A stretch of DNA of 64,000 nt from positions 1,104,501 through 1,168,500 of the forward strand of contig NZ_CP090557.1 of the NCBI RefSeq assembly GCF_021484805.1, read 5' to 3'. This document shows positions 5,283-57,824 of the stretch, one piece after another (the stretch's first letter is position 1; each line of letters begins with the position of its first letter). This DNA is from Tellurirhabdus bombi. GTDB taxonomy: Bacteria > Bacteroidota > Bacteroidia > Cytophagales > Spirosomataceae. The translations under genes and the position numbers were made by a program. The notes under the pieces are model-generated. The model searched no databases, had not been told where the DNA came from, and was given only the letters and a program-made list of their open reading frames with translations.

Positions 5283-6503
5283 ATGATCTCGCCTCGTCTT
5301 TACTTACTTCTTTTATTTTTCCTACTTGTCGGAGTAGTCGCGCTGAAGGTGGCCGACAATCCGGCCTTTTTTTCCACGCCTGACTCCCGGATTTACGTAG
5401 ATGCGGCGGAGCATTTAAAAAACGGTCAAGGCTATTACATTGATTATAAAGGGCAAACGCTTTTCAATACCTTTTTTCCGATTGCCTACTCAGCCCTAAT
5501 TGTGGCCTTTTCGTGGCTTACCACCATCCCTGTTGATTTGTCAGCTAAGGCGGTTAATTTACTGGCGATAGCTAGCTTACTGGTCCTTTTTAGCCGGATT
5601 TTTCGCCGGGCGGCTCCCTGGGTGGGACTGGTTATTTTGAGCAGCACGTTTGTGCACATGGCCAGTTGCACCTGGTCGGAAACGGCATTTCTGACGACCT
5701 GCGTTGCCTTTAGCTACTTTCTGTTTCGTTACCTAACCCAACCGACAGGCTGGGTGCTTTTGGGCTTATTCCTAACTGGTTACGGGCTCTTTCTTTTCCG
5801 GTATATTGGCTTGTTTTCAGTAGGGATTTTGGCTCTATTTGCGCTGTTAGCCGGTCGTCCGGTGCCTTTCTTTAAAACGTTTCCCATTTCGCTCAGGCAG
5901 CGTCTTTGGCTCACGGTCACGGCGGGTGGCATTTTTCTGTCGGGTGTAGGCTATATGTGGTATGAACACCTGCATGAAGCACCCCAGGTAACGGCGTCCC
6001 AACCTTTTCTGCTCATTCGGTGGGCGGGTTTTGGGCAACGCCTACAGGAAGTGCTTTTGACCACGGCTCAGGAGCTTTTGTTCTTTATTCGGGATTGGGA
6101 TAGTAAACGAGTAGCGTTTTTTTCGGCTGGCTTCTGGACGATTGCCATCACTACGGTTTTGCAGTTCGCGATTCTGGCCCGAATCGTTCAGCTTCTTTAC
6201 CAATCCCCGCCGTTGAAACGCCCTACGCCTTTTATTCAGCTCATCTGGATGATTGGACTTGTTTATTATGTATTGATTATCAGTCTATACCTGATTCAGT
6301 TTGACCTGATGCAGAGCGGTATGTATCACTTGTATTACCGGTATTATTTCCCGGCTACAACGTTATTCGTCACCGGATTGCTGGGTTGGTTATCCCAAAC
6401 AAATAACCAGATCGCCTTTGCCCGGATAAAAGGCTGGCTAATCTGGTTATTCGCCCTCTCGCTTTTTCACAGCCTACCGAAGTCGGGTCTGTTCAATTTT
6501 TAA
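5283..6503 (+). CDS. Polytopic membrane protein, GT-C (GT39-like) glycosyltransferase candidate
   Basis: The 406-residue protein has about ten hydrophobic spans and an acidic motif after the first span (STPDSRIYVDAAEHLKNGQGY). That layout resembles GT-C glycosyltransferases of the GT39/PMT type, which use polyprenyl-phosphate sugars. The sugar and acceptor are unknown. It starts 15 bp after thiN, and its 3' end overlaps the convergent PorU2 gene by 4 bp with no terminator between them. A similar but distinct membrane protein lies in the glycan cluster at 45 kb. Confidence 0.65.
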   Translation: MISPRLYLLLLFFLLVGVVALKVADNPAFFSTPDSRIYVDAAEHLKNGQGYYIDYKGQTLFNTFFPIAYSALIVAFSWLTTIPVDLSAKAVNLLAIASLLVLFSRIFRRAAPWVGLVILSSTFVHMASCTWSETAFLTTCVAFSYFLFRYLTQPTGWVLLGLFLTGYGLFLFRYIGLFSVGILALFALLAGRPVPFFKTFPISLRQRLWLTVTAGGIFLSGVGYMWYEHLHEAPQVTASQPFLLIRWAGFGQRLQEVLLTTAQELLFFIRDWDSKRVAFFSAGFWTIAITTVLQFAILARIVQLLYQSPPLKRPTPFIQLIWMIGLVYYVLIISLYLIQFDLMQSGMYHLYYRYYFPATTLFVTGLLGWLSQTNNQIAFARIKGWLIWLFALSLFHSLPKSGLFNF

Positions 6504-9500
6504 CGGATAAGCACAACGCGACCGCCCTGCTTCCGGCCGTCGGGTAAAAGGAGCTGATACAGGTAAAGCCCTGCCGGCAAGGCCGCCCCATCCTGGTCGG
6601 TTCCGTTCCACTCGAACAGGTTTTCACCAATGCGTACGGGCTGGACCGACCTCCAGACCATTTTCCCAGTTAAGCTGTGAATCACGACTTGGCCGTCACC
6701 GGGCGATTCTTTCCCCGACAAAACAAACCGAATGCGTGTGCTGGTTGAAAACGGATTTGGCGCGGCCTGCGCAACCGATAGACTGTCTTCATTTTTTACC
6801 CGAAACCGAATCTGATAAGGCAATGCACCCGCTTTGTTGCCTGCCACGTCGGCAGCCTGGACTTGCAAGGTGTAAACGCCTTCACTGAGGTTACGGGGGC
6901 GGTAATTCAGCGTAAATCGATTGTCGCTCCCGGCTGGCCTCCACTCAACCTCATCACCACCCAGATAAATACGCTCAAAATTGCAGGATGGACAAGGCCG
7001 TTTGAGTAGTACATCGATTCCAACCGTATCCTGTCGAATGCGGTACCGATCCTCGTCCAGCAAATTTACCTGGATTAACGGATTGGCCGAAACAATGGCT
7101 CCATCGGCAATGCGCATGCCGTCAAAAGTAACTTCCAGCAGTGGGTTCAGGCGGTCGGGCGGAAAGCGATCACCTGCACTCGGTAAGGTTACTGCAAACC
7201 CGTTGGTGGTTGATTCGGCACTGAAAACGAGCAAATTATTGGTCTCGTCCATTTCATCAACGCGTTTTTCGGCATCAACTACCAGCTCATAGCTGATTTT
7301 TCCCGCTTCGGCAGCCGGTCGGAAAGCAATAATCACCGTGTCCCGATTAGCCACCGGCCGACCCGCCAATTGCGTAAGCGTTTGGTAGCTTCCACCCGGC
7401 AACAGCCGCCGGACCGTCAGGCTGGCCAGTTCCCGGCTGTTAAAGCGCCCGACATTGCCAATTTCAACTTTTAACCGCACCGAATCTTTAGCCGCTGGAT
7501 CGCCCGCTCGACTAACTCCCTCCGGTGTAAGCTGAAAGTCCGCTTTCGGCATGGGAAAAATGCGCAACGCCGGATCGCCCTGCAACAACATTTGCTGAAT
7601 ATTGGCAATATCCATATCGCTCGGAAAACGCTGCAAGGTCCGGCGGGAAGCCTCCCGGTGCACCACCCCAATTGGCTGGCTCAGGTAGACACTATCGGCC
7701 AATAAAGTTTCGTAAAAGACACGCGTGAAATTATCCAGCTGGCCCACGTAGCCCGAATACCCGTGCCCCAGCGCGGCAATGGCTCCTTTGTCGGGGGTTA
7801 GCAGCCAGTCGGTGCTCAGGCTGTTGGTTGCTCCGTAGAAGATGTTGGCAATGCCACAACCGTTAAAAAACATCATGGGATAACGGCCTTTATTCTGGTA
7901 CCCATACGTTGGATTGGACGCATAACCAATGTCGGTATCCATGACAATGGGTGACGAGTGGCCGAAAGCCGTGATCAACCCAACACCCCGATTAACCACA
8001 TCACTCACCTCGATCCGCTCGACTGGCTCGTCGGTTTTTTTAGACCGCGTGGTGACGGCTGCCCCCAGGAACTGCGCCGTCGCGGTATTTTTGACCCCAT
8101 CCATAATGGTTCGAAAAGCGGTTAGCTCGTAGGCCGACCGACCTCCGCTCAGGTGCAGAACCGATTTCCGCCAGGCCGCGTTGGCGGGTGTACTTTCAAA
8201 CTCCTTTACTTTATTCAGATACTGAATGACCTCTTGCGGCCGGAGCGTATTAATCCGTCCGGTGGGCATGGCCGGGATGTAATTCGGCGAGCCGCCCAGC
8301 CCTTCCGTCAGCGATACATCCGAGCCGGGATAACTCACCGTCGGAACCAAATCAAGTTGATCCTGAAGCGCATTTTTTCGGGTTGGATAATGCATATTTC
8401 CCCGGCCCATCAGGAGCAGAAACTTGTCTCGCCCACCCGTCGCTGAGCCGCTGCTCAGCATGTAATCGGCAAAACGGCGGATCGCCAGCGAGGTACGTTC
8501 GCCAAAGCTAAACTGGTTGACCAGCTCCCGAAAGGTAACCACCAGTGTATCGTAGCGACCACCCGCCGACGAAGCACGGTAGCCTGCATACGCACGAACG
8601 GCATCGGGAGTTGAGCCTGCCGGTTTCATGAGTTGTTCGTGCGAAATAATCAGGTAATTTGGCTTTGCCGGGTCCAGCTTCCGAAAAACGATACGCTCCA
8701 GTTTTACGGGTTTTAGCACGGTGGCCGTTCCCCAAAGTTGCCGAGCCGCATCTGTGCCGGGTACGACCACTTTCTCGGTTGTTCCTGTCCGAACGGAAGT
8801 CAGACGCCGGGGCGCTGTTGGATCTGTAACGTCAAACAAAGCCAGATTTTCCGGGGCATTGGTCAATTCAAGATACGAACGCGCCTGCGGGTTTTTCAGC
8901 AGATTGAACGTTTGCTGGCTTATACCAGCCAGATTAAAATGTTGCGGGTAACGTATTTGAATATAACTAACTGAATACCGGTCGAATTCAGCGCTTCCGC
9001 GCGAAAGGGTAGAAACCGTAATGTCGTTAGCGGCTGACAGGTCGGTGGGCTCTAGCTGGCCTTTAATTTTTGGTGTTTGAAAGGCCTGGAAAGTCGCTGT
9101 GCCGAGTAGTCGCCTGGAAGCCCCGCTGGCCCCAACGGATACATCAACCAGGTGGGGGAAATTATCGCGTCCATTTAGTAAAACCTCCATTTCAGGCTTT
9201 ACAGGGGCCGTTCGCAGCCAATTGTCCAGCCGAAGGGTATGGTCAGCCGCTACGCCTTTCTGCCGCAAAATTCCTGACCAGCCCTCGCCTTCCTCAAAAT
9301 AAACCTGCTTGCTACTGACGAGGCTTTCCGAATCCTTGAAACTGTATTCGTCGGTCAGTAACAGCAATTTTTCCGCGAGGTGGTAACTTTCCGGCGTTAG
9401 GTTGGTCTGGTTTGTTTCATTAATTACCGCCATGCGCTTACCCGCCTTTCCATCCGTACGCCAGGTCAGAAAATAAGCCGCCGTATCGGAAAATAGGCTA

Positions 9501-9862
9501 TAGCGGGCATGAGGCTGGGCACTGCTTGGCCGGTAAAGAATTGAATCCTGCCGACCGTCATTTCCCGTGCCGATGAATTGTAGGTAATCCGCTTCGTCTA
9601 GTTTTCGGTCCGACTCCCCACTGACCAGAATGGCTTGTTCAATACCGCGTCGAAAAAGCTGTAGGGTGGTTGGGTCAATGGTACTAACAGGCAAGCCCGC
9701 CCGGCGCAGATCATCAGTCGTTAAACGATAGAGCCCTTGTTGGGTAACTGGGATGCGATAGTATGTCTGATTATAGTCGATCCATTCATTGCCGTAGCGT
9801 AAAGCCTGAGCGTAGGAAAAAATTATAACAAACTGAAAAAGAAACAGTAAACAATATCTCAT
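6500..9862 (-). CDS. PorU2-like C25 (gingipain-type) peptidase with type IX sorting domain
   Basis: This is a large exported cysteine peptidase of family C25. The catalytic His is in AFGHSS (H635) and the catalytic Cys in FFNGCG (C669). The C-terminus (about residues 1030-1120) begins AAPNPFSTSTRIRF and ends in GLYLYQLLLPDGRK, a type IX secretion sorting / FlgD-Ig-like domain. The start at 9862 is chosen because it gives MRYCLLFLFQFVIIFSYAQA, a good signal peptide; the longer frame from 9931 adds 23 unlikely residues. The N-terminal segment YGNEWIDYNQTYYRIPV matches proteins named putative type IX secretion sortase PorU2. The likely place is the outer membrane or cell surface. Whether it is a true sortase or an accessory peptidase is not decided by sequence. 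Confidence 0.85.
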   Translation of the reverse strand: MRYCLLFLFQFVIIFSYAQALRYGNEWIDYNQTYYRIPVTQQGLYRLTTDDLRRAGLPVSTIDPTTLQLFRRGIEQAILVSGESDRKLDEADYLQFIGTGNDGRQDSILYRPSSAQPHARYSLFSDTAAYFLTWRTDGKAGKRMAVINETNQTNLTPESYHLAEKLLLLTDEYSFKDSESLVSSKQVYFEEGEGWSGILRQKGVAADHTLRLDNWLRTAPVKPEMEVLLNGRDNFPHLVDVSVGASGASRRLLGTATFQAFQTPKIKGQLEPTDLSAANDITVSTLSRGSAEFDRYSVSYIQIRYPQHFNLAGISQQTFNLLKNPQARSYLELTNAPENLALFDVTDPTAPRRLTSVRTGTTEKVVVPGTDAARQLWGTATVLKPVKLERIVFRKLDPAKPNYLIISHEQLMKPAGSTPDAVRAYAGYRASSAGGRYDTLVVTFRELVNQFSFGERTSLAIRRFADYMLSSGSATGGRDKFLLLMGRGNMHYPTRKNALQDQLDLVPTVSYPGSDVSLTEGLGGSPNYIPAMPTGRINTLRPQEVIQYLNKVKEFESTPANAAWRKSVLHLSGGRSAYELTAFRTIMDGVKNTATAQFLGAAVTTRSKKTDEPVERIEVSDVVNRGVGLITAFGHSSPIVMDTDIGYASNPTYGYQNKGRYPMMFFNGCGIANIFYGATNSLSTDWLLTPDKGAIAALGHGYSGYVGQLDNFTRVFYETLLADSVYLSQPIGVVHREASRRTLQRFPSDMDIANIQQMLLQGDPALRIFPMPKADFQLTPEGVSRAGDPAAKDSVRLKVEIGNVGRFNSRELASLTVRRLLPGGSYQTLTQLAGRPVANRDTVIIAFRPAAEAGKISYELVVDAEKRVDEMDETNNLLVFSAESTTNGFAVTLPSAGDRFPPDRLNPLLEVTFDGMRIADGAIVSANPLIQVNLLDEDRYRIRQDTVGIDVLLKRPCPSCNFERIYLGGDEVEWRPAGSDNRFTLNYRPRNLSEGVYTLQVQAADVAGNKAGALPYQIRFRVKNEDSLSVAQAAPNPFSTSTRIRFVLSGKESPGDGQVVIHSLTGKMVWRSVQPVRIGENLFEWNGTDQDGAALPAGLYLYQLLLPDGRKQGGRVVLIR

Positions 9863-9994
9863 CCTTAAAAAGTAATAGAGTAGCTCGCTAAAGTCTATAA
9901 AAGTACAAAATAAGTTAATTCCATTTATCAAAGTTTTATACCTTTTATTCCGCTCTTAACCCACTCATCCCGACAAGGCAAATAAAATTATAAA

Positions 9995-10030
9995 GTACCT
10001 TGCATTGCATAGTACCTTTTTGTACCTTTG
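9995..10030 (+). promoter_or_regulatory. padR promoter with overlapping inverted-repeat operator
   Basis: A 21-bp element GTACCTTGC-ATT-GCATAGTAC occupies 9995-10015, with GTAC at both ends. A Bacteroidota -7 box TACCTTTG follows at 10023-10030, and a -33 TTG lies at 10000-10002 (20-bp spacing) inside the element. The same element, inverted and with 19 of 21 positions equal, precedes the same -7 box at 57.3 kb. Its place over the promoter of a PadR gene suggests the autoregulatory PadR operator, which is an inference. Confidence 0.75.
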
Positions 10031-10046
10031 AATCATTAATCGGTAG

Positions 10047-10129: not shown

Positions 10130-10164
10130 CCCCACAAACTACTAACAGTCATGTAAGGCTATGA
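10084..10164 (+). CDS. Possible 26-codon leader ORF coupled to padR
   Basis: An ATG at 10084 opens a frame of 26 codons that begins MNRPMTYEKDRHSG and ends at TGA 10162-10164. Its stop overlaps the padR start codon by 4 bp (ATGA), the arrangement of translational coupling. It spans the right arm of the leader inverted repeat. The product resembles nothing I recognise, and chance is a real alternative. Confidence 0.25.
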   Translation: MNRPMTYEKDRHSGISPQTTNSHVRL

Positions 10165-10565
10165 ATATTGAAAATGCACAAGTGCAGATGCGCAAAGGAA
10201 TCCTGGAATTCTGCATCCTGCACATCATTTCGCGGGGAGAAGTGTATGCCTCCGACATGCTGGATGAGTTGACCTCAGCCCGCATTATGGTTGTAGAAGG
10301 CACCCTTTACCCGCTTTTGACCCGACTGAAGAATGCTGGTTTGCTCGATTACAAATGGGTAGAATCAACCTCGGGGCCACCCCGTAAATATTATATTTTG
10401 ACGGAAGTAGGCCAGGCCTCTTTGAAAGCAATGAACGATACATGGGATGAATTGGCAAAGTCGGTGAACCAGATTGTCAGCAAAACCGGCCAGCAAAAAG
10501 GCGTTACCAATGGCCATACGCAACCGGAACCCGCTGCCCCGAACGATTACACATCCAATGCCTAA
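10161..10565 (+). CDS. PadR family transcriptional regulator
   Basis: This 134-residue protein has a winged-helix PadR domain over residues about 8-100. Seen are the segment KGILEFCILHIISRGEVYASDML, the recognition-helix and wing region VVEGTLYPLLTRLKNAGLL, and the wing GPPRKYYILTEVG. PadR proteins are usually repressors released by a ligand. The gene leads an operon: the PspC/DUF2807 gene begins 38 bp after its stop, and a second DUF2807 gene follows. PadR-PspC neighbours are common in Bacteroidota, and the pairing suggests control of an envelope stress or maintenance function. The 21-bp repeat in its promoter is the candidate target. Confidence 0.92.
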   Translation: MNIENAQVQMRKGILEFCILHIISRGEVYASDMLDELTSARIMVVEGTLYPLLTRLKNAGLLDYKWVESTSGPPRKYYILTEVGQASLKAMNDTWDELAKSVNQIVSKTGQQKGVTNGHTQPEPAAPNDYTSNA

Positions 10566-10603: not shown

Positions 10604-13147
10604 ATGAAAAAGACCATCAGTATTAATATAAGCGGCGTCATCTTCCACATTGAGGAAGACGGCTACGACAAGCTAAAAGGTTATCTGGCGTCCATTCAGC
10701 AGTATTTTTCGACCTACGAAGATAGTCAGGAAATCATCACCGACATTGAGAACCGAATCGCCGAAAAGCTCCACAACAAGCTGAAAGGTGAAGAAAAACT
10801 AGGCACTCCACGCCAGGCCGTTACCCTTGACGATGTCAACGAATTGATTCGCTCGATGGGTACCGTGGCCGACTTCGTGGCGGTGGAAGAAGAAGAAATT
10901 CTGGTTGGTGCCAGCCAACGCCCCGAAAGCAAAACAACCAGTTCTGAAGCGCCTCCCCAAAGCCAGCCTGGATACGGTAGTCAGCAAGTGCCACCCCGCA
11001 GTACTACAGCAGGCCGGGGCCCTCGCCGCCTTTACCGCGATTTGCGCCGGAAAGTGATTGCCGGGGTAGCTTCTGGAATCGCCAATTATTTTAACATCGA
11101 CCCGGTTTGGGTGCGGCTAGCCTTTCTGACGCTGGTCCTGGCCTTGCCGCCCTTTGCGGGAGCCAGCAACAGCGGTGAAGAGTTTTTCGCCGGTTTGTCC
11201 GGTTTCACTACCATCCTGTATATCGCCATGTGGATTGCTTTTCCGGGCTCCACGACTTTGGAAGAAGATAAAAGTGTAAAAAAGTTTTATCGCAATCCCG
11301 ATGATAAGGTGCTGGGTGGTGTTTCTTCCGGCATTGCGGCTTATTTCGGCATCGACTCCGGTCTGGTTCGCTTGTTGTTTGTGCTAGCCATTTTCGCGTT
11401 CGGTACGGGTTTTCTGGCCTACATCATCCTTTGGATTATCTCTCCCGAAGCCAAAACGATGACCGAAAAAATGGAGATGAAAGGCCAGCCCATTACGCTG
11501 GAGAACATTGAACACAACGTCAAACGCAGCCTGAACATTGACGAAAATGAAGGCAACGAAAATGCTTTAACTAAAGTGCTTCTGTTTCCTTTTCGGGTGA
11601 TATCAGCCGTTTTTAGTGGCCTGGGCCGCGCGCTGGGCCCATTGGCCTGGGGAATTGGCACGGTTGTCCGCGTTCTGGTTGGGGTGATGCTGCTTTTTGT
11701 TGGCGGTGCCATTATGATCGGGGCACTGACTATTCTCGGCACGGGGTTAGGCATGCAAGGTTTAGGCATTGAAACCGGCAATTTTCCACTGGAACTGATC
11801 CAGCAGGAGCTATCGGTACCCATGATTCTGGCCGCCTTTGTCGCCATCTTCATTCCGGGTCTGGCACTGGCAATTCTGGGTATCACGCTGATTTCGCAAA
11901 GAACACTGGTTTCTTCGCGGGTTAATCTGACCTTGCTAAGCATCTGGTTCCTGAGTTTAATTGGCATTGCGGCTACGATTCCGCCCATTGTCAGCGATTT
12001 TCGCCGGACGGGAGTTGTGGAAGAAGCGGTTGTCGCTACGCCTACTGGAACACCTACCTTTACAATCAATGACCTGGATGATACGTCTTTCCGACCTTCA
12101 ATTGAACTGGAAGCGTATAACGGTACAACCTGGCAGGTGGTAAAACGGCTCCAGGCGCAAGGCTCTTCCCGTAGGGATGCCCAGGCTAATGCCAAAGCCG
12201 CAATCTATAACTTTGCTGTTCAGGATTCGACCATTCGCTTTGATAATGAGTACGAAATCAAGCCCGGCGCTAAATTTCGGGGCCAGGAAGTAAACATCAC
12301 GGTGCTGATTCCTTACGAAAAACCATTCCGAATGAGCGAGTCGTTTGCCCGGTATATCCGAAATGAATTTGGCTCGCGCGAAATAGACCAGATGGATAAC
12401 AGCCTCTGGAAATTTACCAAACAGGATGGGCTGGTGCGCGCTGACGGAACGCGTGATTTAGACCGCAATGATGATGATGATTTTGATATGGACGACGCCG
12501 TTAGTCAGGCATTGCGCGAAGAATTTGGGCATGATTTCGACCAGAAGGGAGATTACAACCGCCAGTTTGATGTCCCTAATTTTGATAAACTCGACATTGG
12601 GGGTGCCTTTATCGTGCGCGTTCGGCAGGGAGATACCGTTCGGGTCGTAGCGGATGGACGCGAGAGCGAAATCAACGATTTGCGGGTGCGCGTCGAAGGT
12701 GGTGAACTCCACGTTGACTTTCGCAAGAGCGGCCTGTTTCAGTGGCGCGATCGTAAACGAATCGGCATTACGGTTACCATGCCAACCGTAAAATCAGCTC
12801 AATTCTCTGGTGCAACCAAAGCCAGCATTACCGGCTTCGAGAACCTGGAAGCGCTGGATGTAGACATGAGTGGTGCCTGCCGTTCGCTCATCGACGTGAA
12901 AGTGAATCGGTTAAAAGTAAATCTGTCGGGGGCTTCCAAAGCTACTTTACAGGGTCGCGCCAACAATTTAAGTGCTGATCTGTCGGGCGCTTGCAAACTT
13001 GACGCCACCGCCAGCCGCGTTGGACGGGCAAACGTAGAGGCATCCGGCGCCAGTAAAGCTGACTTTGGCGAAGTAACTGATCTGAACGCTAATACCAGCG
13101 GTGCCAGCAAGGTTAATGGCAATTCATCACGGAATGACATTCAATAA
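10604..13147 (+). CDS. PspC-domain membrane protein with C-terminal DUF2807 (head-GIN) domain
   Basis: The 847-residue protein starts with a cytoplasmic-looking region (residues 1-130) containing ISGVIFHIEEDGYDKL. It has two PspC domains at about 139-215 (RRLYRDLRRKVIAGVASGIANYF) and 225-290 (KKFYRNPDDKVLGGVSSGIAAYF). Several membrane spans follow to about residue 465. After a non-membrane stretch and an acidic linker (DRNDDDDFDMDD, near 620), a DUF2807 domain covers about 653-845. This last domain carries repeated SGAS/SGAC turns typical of a right-handed beta-solenoid. PspC is the phage-shock sensor family. The protein sits between padR and a second DUF2807 gene, and all three are probably one transcript. 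Its function is unproven; a link to envelope stress is inferred from PspC. Confidence 0.88.
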   Translation: MKKTISINISGVIFHIEEDGYDKLKGYLASIQQYFSTYEDSQEIITDIENRIAEKLHNKLKGEEKLGTPRQAVTLDDVNELIRSMGTVADFVAVEEEEILVGASQRPESKTTSSEAPPQSQPGYGSQQVPPRSTTAGRGPRRLYRDLRRKVIAGVASGIANYFNIDPVWVRLAFLTLVLALPPFAGASNSGEEFFAGLSGFTTILYIAMWIAFPGSTTLEEDKSVKKFYRNPDDKVLGGVSSGIAAYFGIDSGLVRLLFVLAIFAFGTGFLAYIILWIISPEAKTMTEKMEMKGQPITLENIEHNVKRSLNIDENEGNENALTKVLLFPFRVISAVFSGLGRALGPLAWGIGTVVRVLVGVMLLFVGGAIMIGALTILGTGLGMQGLGIETGNFPLELIQQELSVPMILAAFVAIFIPGLALAILGITLISQRTLVSSRVNLTLLSIWFLSLIGIAATIPPIVSDFRRTGVVEEAVVATPTGTPTFTINDLDDTSFRPSIELEAYNGTTWQVVKRLQAQGSSRRDAQANAKAAIYNFAVQDSTIRFDNEYEIKPGAKFRGQEVNITVLIPYEKPFRMSESFARYIRNEFGSREIDQMDNSLWKFTKQDGLVRADGTRDLDRNDDDDFDMDDAVSQALREEFGHDFDQKGDYNRQFDVPNFDKLDIGGAFIVRVRQGDTVRVVADGRESEINDLRVRVEGGELHVDFRKSGLFQWRDRKRIGITVTMPTVKSAQFSGATKASITGFENLEALDVDMSGACRSLIDVKVNRLKVNLSGASKATLQGRANNLSADLSGACKLDATASRVGRANVEASGASKADFGEVTDLNANTSGASKVNGNSSRNDIQ

Positions 13148-13211: not shown

Positions 13212-13958
13212 ATGAAAACGCTTTTGACCATTCAACGCTTCTTAGTTTTCTGCCTGGCTGCTCTGACAACGATGGCTTTTACAGCCTGCCCTGCCAATAA
13301 AGGCACCCGAATGAGCATTTTACAGGAAGAAACCCGCACGTTTTCCCTCAGCAATTTTGACCGTCTGGATTTAGGCAGCGCCTTTGTCATTACTGTTACA
13401 CAAGGCAGCAATTATAAAATCACGGCTTCGGGTCGGCAAAGTGACCTGGAGGACCTGGATGCCAGCATCGGTAACAACAAAACATTGCGTATTCGTTACA
13501 AGAACAACTCGTTCGGAAACAACCGACACGAACGCGTTACGCTCACCATTACGATGCCTAATCTGTCCGGTGTCTCATTTTCGGGGGCTTCCAAATCGAC
13601 GGTAACGGGCTTTCGGAACATGGGTGACTTCACCGCTGATATTTCCGGGGCTTCTTCGTCTACGATTGATGTGGATGCCTCTCAAGTGTCAATCGACATT
13701 TCTGGTGCGTCAAACGCTACGCTGAAAGGCAAAGCCAAAACCTTGAATGGAGAAGTGTCTGGCGCAGCCTCTCTGAAAGCGTTTGATCTTAAACTGGAAA
13801 GCGCCACGGTGGAAGCATCCGGAGCGAGTAAAGCGCAGGTTTTTGCGACCAGCCGTTTACAAGCCGATGCCAGTGGTGCCAGCAGCGTTAACTACAAAGG
13901 TTCACCTTCTGTCCAGTCACATACATCCGGTGCTAGTTCCGTTAGATCGGCTAACTAA
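13212..13958 (+). CDS. Exported head-GIN (DUF2807) domain protein
   Basis: The start at 13212 gives MKTLLTIQRF and a hydrophobic N-terminal signal ending TMAFTAC. The cysteine could be lipidated, but the lipobox is weak. The frame upstream to 13101 overlaps the end of the previous gene and is rejected. The 248-residue product is almost entirely one DUF2807 domain (FSLSNFDRLDLGSAFVITV onwards) with about eight SGAS/SGAA repeats. It is a clear relative of the C-terminal domain of the preceding protein, so a duplication is likely. It closes the padR operon before a strong terminator. Its location would be the periplasm or outer membrane. Confidence 0.85.
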   Translation: MKTLLTIQRFLVFCLAALTTMAFTACPANKGTRMSILQEETRTFSLSNFDRLDLGSAFVITVTQGSNYKITASGRQSDLEDLDASIGNNKTLRIRYKNNSFGNNRHERVTLTITMPNLSGVSFSGASKSTVTGFRNMGDFTADISGASSSTIDVDASQVSIDISGASNATLKGKAKTLNGEVSGAASLKAFDLKLESATVEASGASKAQVFATSRLQADASGASSVNYKGSPSVQSHTSGASSVRSAN

Positions 13959-13975
13959 TTTATACTTACCCATTG

Positions 13976-14009
13976 AAGTCATCCTCTGGAATGGAGGATG
14001 ACTTTTTTT
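13976..14009 (+). terminator. Intrinsic terminator of the padR-PspC-DUF2807 operon
   Basis: The stem AAGTCATCCTC (13976-13986) pairs exactly with GAGGATGACTT (13994-14004) over a 7-nt loop and runs into seven T residues. Confidence 0.9.
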
Positions 14010-57283: not shown

Positions 57284-57324
57284 GTACTATGCATAGCAAG
57301 GTACTATTTAGGCTGCTACCTTTG
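57284..57324 (+). promoter_or_regulatory. Second copy of the padR operator with -7 box
   Basis: GTACTATGC-ATA-GCAAGGTAC at 57284-57304 is the reverse complement of the element at 9995-10015 with 19 of 21 positions identical. TACCTTTG at 57317-57324 is the same -7 box as in the padR promoter. No -33 TTG is seen at the usual distance. A leader of about 98 nt leads to the secreted-protein gene. Confidence 0.7.
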
Positions 57325-57428: not shown

Positions 57429-57824
57429 ATGAAATCGCTCATCGCTTCCTTAATCATTGCTTTCGCTGTTACCACTGCTTCTGTTGCTGCCGATAATCAC
57501 AACAAGCCAAACCGCCCTGCCAAGGCTTCCATGACAACAGCCGTTTATCCAAATGTAGACGCCAATAAACTACACGTCATTGTTGATAAGTCAGAAGGCC
57601 ATACAGCTAAAATTCGTCTGATTGACGCTAAGGGGCACACACTTTGCATCCAGAATGTAGCCAAGTCTACTAAAGTAACCCACGCCACCTTTGACGTAAG
57701 TAGCTTGGCCGACGGAACCTACCAGGTTGAAATTACGGACGGAACCAATAAAGAAGTTAAAGAAATTACGCTAAAAACGACGCAACCTACAATTACAGTA
57801 AACCGCGTCATCGCCATGCAGTAA
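57429..57824 (+). CDS. Small secreted protein with a beta-sandwich C-terminus
   Basis: The 131-residue protein has a signal peptide (to about residue 21, ending ASVAA). The rest resembles the beta-sandwich repeat used in T9SS sorting domains: KIRLIDAKGHTLCIQNVAKS, then LADGTYQVEITDGTNKEVKEITL. It lacks an upstream functional domain, so it is not an obvious cargo enzyme. Its promoter carries the candidate PadR operator, so it may be made together with the PspC/DUF2807 operon. The function is unknown. Confidence 0.7.
   Translation: MKSLIASLIIAFAVTTASVAADNHNKPNRPAKASMTTAVYPNVDANKLHVIVDKSEGHTAKIRLIDAKGHTLCIQNVAKSTKVTHATFDVSSLADGTYQVEITDGTNKEVKEITLKTTQPTITVNRVIAMQ

Follow-up and report, generated by a model that had tools for sequence, protein, structure and literature searches.

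A conserved putative PadR operator at a PspC-Toastrack operon and at distant secreted-protein genes of Tellurirhabdus bombi

A pseudo-palindromic 21-bp element, found twice in a 64,000-nucleotide stretch of Tellurirhabdus bombi DNA (hereafter, the window), is very probably the operator of the PadR-type regulator encoded at 10161–10565. Judging from the sequence, we also consider it probable that this regulator and the PspC-Toastrack protein encoded next to it form an envelope-stress switch, in which the operator serves autorepression and additionally controls three distant genes. Direct observations cover the sites, their conservation, the promoter geometry, the target families, and the co-occurrence with padR.

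The two elements were first pointed out in an earlier note on this DNA, and both their coordinates and their match in inverted orientation are confirmed. Putative operator 1 (GTACCTTGCATTGCATAGTAC, positions 9995–10015, forward strand) belongs to the padR-pspC promoter, and putative operator 2 (GTACTATGCATAGCAAGGTAC, 57284–57304, forward strand) to the promoter of a secreted-protein gene. Both follow the pattern GTACYWTGYNNNRCAWRGTAC, and the reverse complement of the second copy, GTACCTTGCTATGCATAGTAC, shares 19 of 21 positions with the first copy. The same −7 box, TACCTTTG, indeed stands after both copies (10023–10030 and 57317–57324, forward strand), with transcription starts predicted near 10035 and 57329, respectively; the gaps are equal to 7 and 12 bp, the previously reported 8–13 bp including the box's first base. 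The degenerate consensus GTACYWTGCWWWGCAWRGTAC, which was loosened after initial inspection, has only these two matches in the window at ≤3 mismatches (0.07 expected), and none of 100 shuffled sequences contains two. The window has just three copies of the exact TACCTTTG. TAnnTTTG alone, however, is found there at chance level (40 occurrences vs 44 expected), and weight is therefore placed on the 21-mer and its fixed relation to the box. The G-preceded −7 box (GTACCTTTG) was also considered as a third half-site and rejected, as relatives do not keep it.

The padR gene (10161–10565, forward strand) encodes 134 amino acids with a winged-helix PadR domain (PF03551, 63.9 bits vs a curated cut-off of 27). 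Its closest solved structure is 5H20, which we take to be that of Bacteroides fragilis BF2549 and which aligns with the window protein end to end (127 bits over residues 1–108); it was this alignment that was consulted for the C-terminal dimerisation helix expected of the family. It is followed by the gene for an 847-aa membrane protein (10604–13147, forward strand) with a HAAS-like region, 2 PspC domains, and LiaI-LiaF-TM, Toast-rack, and DUF2807 regions. The last gene of the operon (13212–13958, forward strand, start set at the signal-peptide Met) encodes a secreted DUF2807 (Toastrack-type) protein, after which a terminator-like hairpin with 14 pairs and a T run lies at 13975–14005 of the same strand (pattern match only). 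When membership in the HAAS-PadR/PspC-Toastrack group was tested, PF04024, PF22571, PF22744, and PF10988 all exceeded their cut-offs. As for HAAS, the 847-aa protein scores 19.9 bits, below the cut-off of 27; scores within this clade, where the GxP motif reads GTV, range from 19.9 to 22, and the PspC protein of one relative reaches 33.7 bits, which is above the cut-off. Divergently from padR, a large secreted Peptidase_C25 protein (PorU-like) is encoded at 6500–9865 on the minus strand, an adjacency not kept in most relatives. This gene was rejected as a second target, since no −7 box points that way and most relatives have a different neighbour there.

Most of the sites sit on promoters of the Bacteroidota sigma-A type (−7 TAnnTTTG and −33 TTTG; PMC7366714, PMC9723704), with the −33 region here built into the operator. 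According to the placement of the −7 consensus at −12 to −5 in F. psychrophilum (PMC9723704), operators 1 and 2 would occupy approximately −40 to −20 and −45 to −25, respectively, positions at which a dimer, once bound, would obstruct sigma region 4. The upstream half of operator 1, CCTTG, includes a TTG 20 bp before the −7 box, which is a candidate −33 element. Two gap classes are seen across the sites: 6–8 bp, typical for padR and outer-membrane barrel genes, and 12–13 bp, typical for secreted proteins and stand-alone PspC. Among 128 distinct short-gap promoters, 84% have a TTG 20 bp before the −7 box, within the half-site CCTTG, vs about half of 78 long-gap promoters, in which it lies at 20–21 bp and at the operator centre. 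The inverted orientation of the window copies might be explained by the site being a palindrome for the protein, with its asymmetry set by the needs of the −33 element.

Repression appears to be the most likely mode of control at these promoters. A true operator through which PadR serves as an activator, or in both roles, at secreted-protein promoters would agree with the existence of two distinct gap classes, with the operator lying 5–6 bp further upstream there than at padR (about half a helical turn), and with the rarer correctly spaced −33 TTG in the long-gap class. This explanation is nevertheless unlikely, because padR operons outside Spirosomataceae mostly have the 12–13 bp gap, so that opposite roles would be needed at the same geometry, and because known PadR proteins are mostly repressors.

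The genome-wide search proposed in the earlier note yields two good matches beyond the window pair: in the whole genome (4.94 Mb) there are 4 sites at 0–1 mismatch, two in the window and two outside it, and the reversed control pattern has no match in the genome at the same stringency. The site at genome position 3560330 is identical to the second window site and precedes the gene for a 131-aa paralogue of the secreted protein encoded in the window (73% identity), while the site at 1077445 has one mismatch to the strict pattern and precedes the gene for a 79-aa secreted-type protein. A TAnnTTTG box is located downstream of all four sites, at 7, 12, 12, and 13 bp. Weak genome matches with 3 mismatches (L007–L010) were rejected as further sites because the promoter pattern is absent. 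The proposed regulon thus finds support at the sequence level and is larger than the earlier note had it, with three distant secreted-protein genes in this genome. Two near-identical inverted copies could also suggest a dispersed repeat or a chance palindrome with no regulatory function, but such an origin is extremely improbable given the expected number of window matches, the empty genomic control, the constant distance to the −7 box, and retention of the element in distant families whose flanks differ.

The secreted protein of the window (131 aa, 57429–57824, forward strand) had been described as a small beta-sandwich, which agrees with its secreted-type sequence and with the seven-strand sandwich that is confidently predicted for residues 35 to about 118. 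Its Por_Secre_tail score is 38.1 bits (cut-off 27), and the DUF3244 score is 20.5 (cut-off 25). It is a one-domain protein whose C-terminal extension finishes in a conserved tail containing Arg, and therefore is not an ordinary sorting tail. Among its best fold matches are the small immunoglobulin-type beta-sandwiches of the DUF3244 proteins BT_1867, BT_3571, and BVU_0276 (4G5A, 3SD2, and 3D33, respectively), although the TM-score on the query is only 0.44–0.47 and the sequence score is below the DUF3244 cut-off.

To find recurrent targets other than padR-pspC, genes downstream of the sites were clustered. Relatives of the 131-aa protein follow the site at about 23 loci, counting those whose box is imperfect. 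In the sister genome G023, one of them (L383) is preceded by a perfect site. The presence of the pair in related genomes, named in the earlier note as possible support, is thus borne out in G023 and at about 20 other loci. Paralogues L384 and L385, the latter in this same genome, have no site, and thus the family is only partly under the control of the operator. At 13 loci the site precedes a gene for a small secreted protein with a (G/H)xPHN(L/I)F-like motif (“GHPHNLF”) after the signal peptide, and the 79-aa gene of this genome belongs to this group. The family members are secreted-type proteins of about 75–150 aa (L004, L077, L137, L153, L157, L164, and others); a Pfam search with a fragment of one of them returned no match. 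Other genes that follow the sites encode 13 or more outer-membrane proteins (CarboxypepD_reg, Plug, OMP_b-brl_3). Stand-alone PspC proteins also recur after sites not located at padR, a link between site and PspC that does not depend on proximity to padR. The small genomes of genus g13 have lgt, the gene for prolipoprotein diacylglyceryl transferase, after the site; at the g13 loci L020, L022, L023, L025, L027, and L171 the operator lies between lgt and, mostly, a divergent lipoprotein gene.

Conservation at padR, named in the earlier note as a check on the element, is borne out in 69 of 70 inspected padR loci of Spirosomataceae and in most of the other Bacteroidia families sampled. Among 150 genomes of Spirosomataceae (Larkinella, Spirosoma, Fibrella, Dyadobacter, Runella, and others), 148 have padR and 134 match the strict pattern with one mismatch allowed. 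The 70 inspected upstream regions include those of 14 genomes without a strict-pattern match; in 69 of them an element with ≤1 mismatch to GTACYWTGYNNNRCAWRGTAC is present, always with a gap of 6–8 bp to TAnnTTTG. The sole exception is G003 (L199), with no element closer than 450 bp to padR. No variation is seen in TA, TTG, C, or the right-hand AGTAC across 38 distinct operators. The left arm GTAT, TTAC, or ATAC occurs in genera whose PadR has EIL in helix 2 (ASEILDEL), and GTAC or CTAC in those having DML, NML, or TML, a possible covariation of protein and site that is confounded by phylogeny.

Beyond Spirosomataceae, the element precedes padR in families f3, f4, f5, f6, f8, f9, f10, and f11, mostly with a gap of 12–13 bp to the box and at some sites with up to 2–3 mismatches. 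In Flavobacteriaceae (f7) it lies 500–850 bp upstream of padR and is followed by a DUF4870 gene, with which the operon would begin there. A diverged version is present in family f2, which belongs to the same order as Spirosomataceae. In the phylum sample, the site is present in 59 of 70 genomes with a close padR vs 18 of 226 without it, the latter being near background (about 10% for the reversed control pattern); the Fisher value is 1.6e-34, with genomes not independent and phylogeny uncorrected. Just two genomes of the family lack padR, namely G009 and G146; these are fragmented assemblies, and neither has a match to the operator. As the T. bombi genome contains four PadR-type matches, a different regulator, e.g., another PadR-family protein, might bind the element and control padR-pspC from outside. 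This is quite improbable, considering that, throughout the class, the site co-occurs tightly with this padR lineage, that it is missing from both family genomes lacking the gene, and that this PadR is the only regulator constantly adjoining the site.

A second palindrome type, TTACTTTGnnnnnCAAAGTAC, was detected twice within 2.2 kb at G000:C1:958068 and 960286 (L005 and L006), adjoining a DUF1361-like gene, a gene for a small winged-helix regulator, and a CreD-like gene. It is probably the operator of that neighbouring regulator, and similar sites recur in L140, L145, and L152. As PadR sites, L005 and L006 (TTACTTTG...CAAAGTAC) were rejected as a different operator type and left out of the counts.

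Regarding known systems, a HAAS-PadR-like wHTH switch with PspC and Toastrack was proposed in 2024 by Ravi et al. (PMC11237479), and the window operon has the same arrangement as described in that paper, albeit with a sub-threshold HAAS; its passages on PadR, DUF2807, and Bacteroidetes give no operator or distant targets. In Listeria, LftR, LstR, LltR, and LadR are mostly autoregulatory PadR repressors of membrane-protein operons and are thought to respond to envelope-active compounds (PMC6624303). LstR and LltR, however, mainly control their own operons (PMC6624303), whereas the operator presented here also precedes several unlinked secreted-protein genes. The B. fragilis orthologue BF2549 is the subject of Lee, Kim and Hong (2017; cited in PMC6457526), and a similar PadR in family f11 carries this operator. 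Autorepression by PadR is thus already known, while the operator, its spread in Bacteroidia, and the regulon appear to be undescribed in the open literature searched, the paywalled BF2549 study being outside this scope. Neither PadR nor PspC comes up in the main text of the transcriptome papers on F. psychrophilum and B. thetaiotaomicron.

From these data we infer PadR binding, repression, and a sensor role of the PspC protein. A PadR dimer would bind two GTAC-YWTG half-sites and cover the −33 region of Bacteroidota-type promoters, holding them closed. It would thereby repress its own operon, i.e., padR, the HAAS-like/PspC/LiaF-TM/Toastrack membrane protein, and the secreted DUF2807 protein, as well as two genes for DUF3244-like secreted beta-sandwiches and the one for the 79-aa secreted protein, all of them distant. 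The PspC/Toastrack protein may sense envelope disturbance, with its N-terminal HAAS-like domain relaying the signal to PadR, which would then release the operator.

Whether Bacteroidia have a class-wide envelope-stress regulon built from a PspC/Toastrack sensor, PadR, and one operator type, with no two-component system or ECF sigma factor, seems evenly balanced to us. If so, it would unite the sensor operon with lineage-specific small secreted proteins, outer-membrane barrels, PspC proteins, and lgt, its operator being shiftable by about half a helical turn with the −33 overlap retained. Little is known of how Bacteroidota control envelope stress, and the proposal of the HAAS-PadR/PspC system had come from gene neighbourhoods. 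The conserved operator gives this system a testable binding site and yields a list of target genes in many laboratory-grown species (Spirosoma, Dyadobacter, Runella, Flavobacterium), as well as a way into several families of small secreted proteins whose function is unknown.
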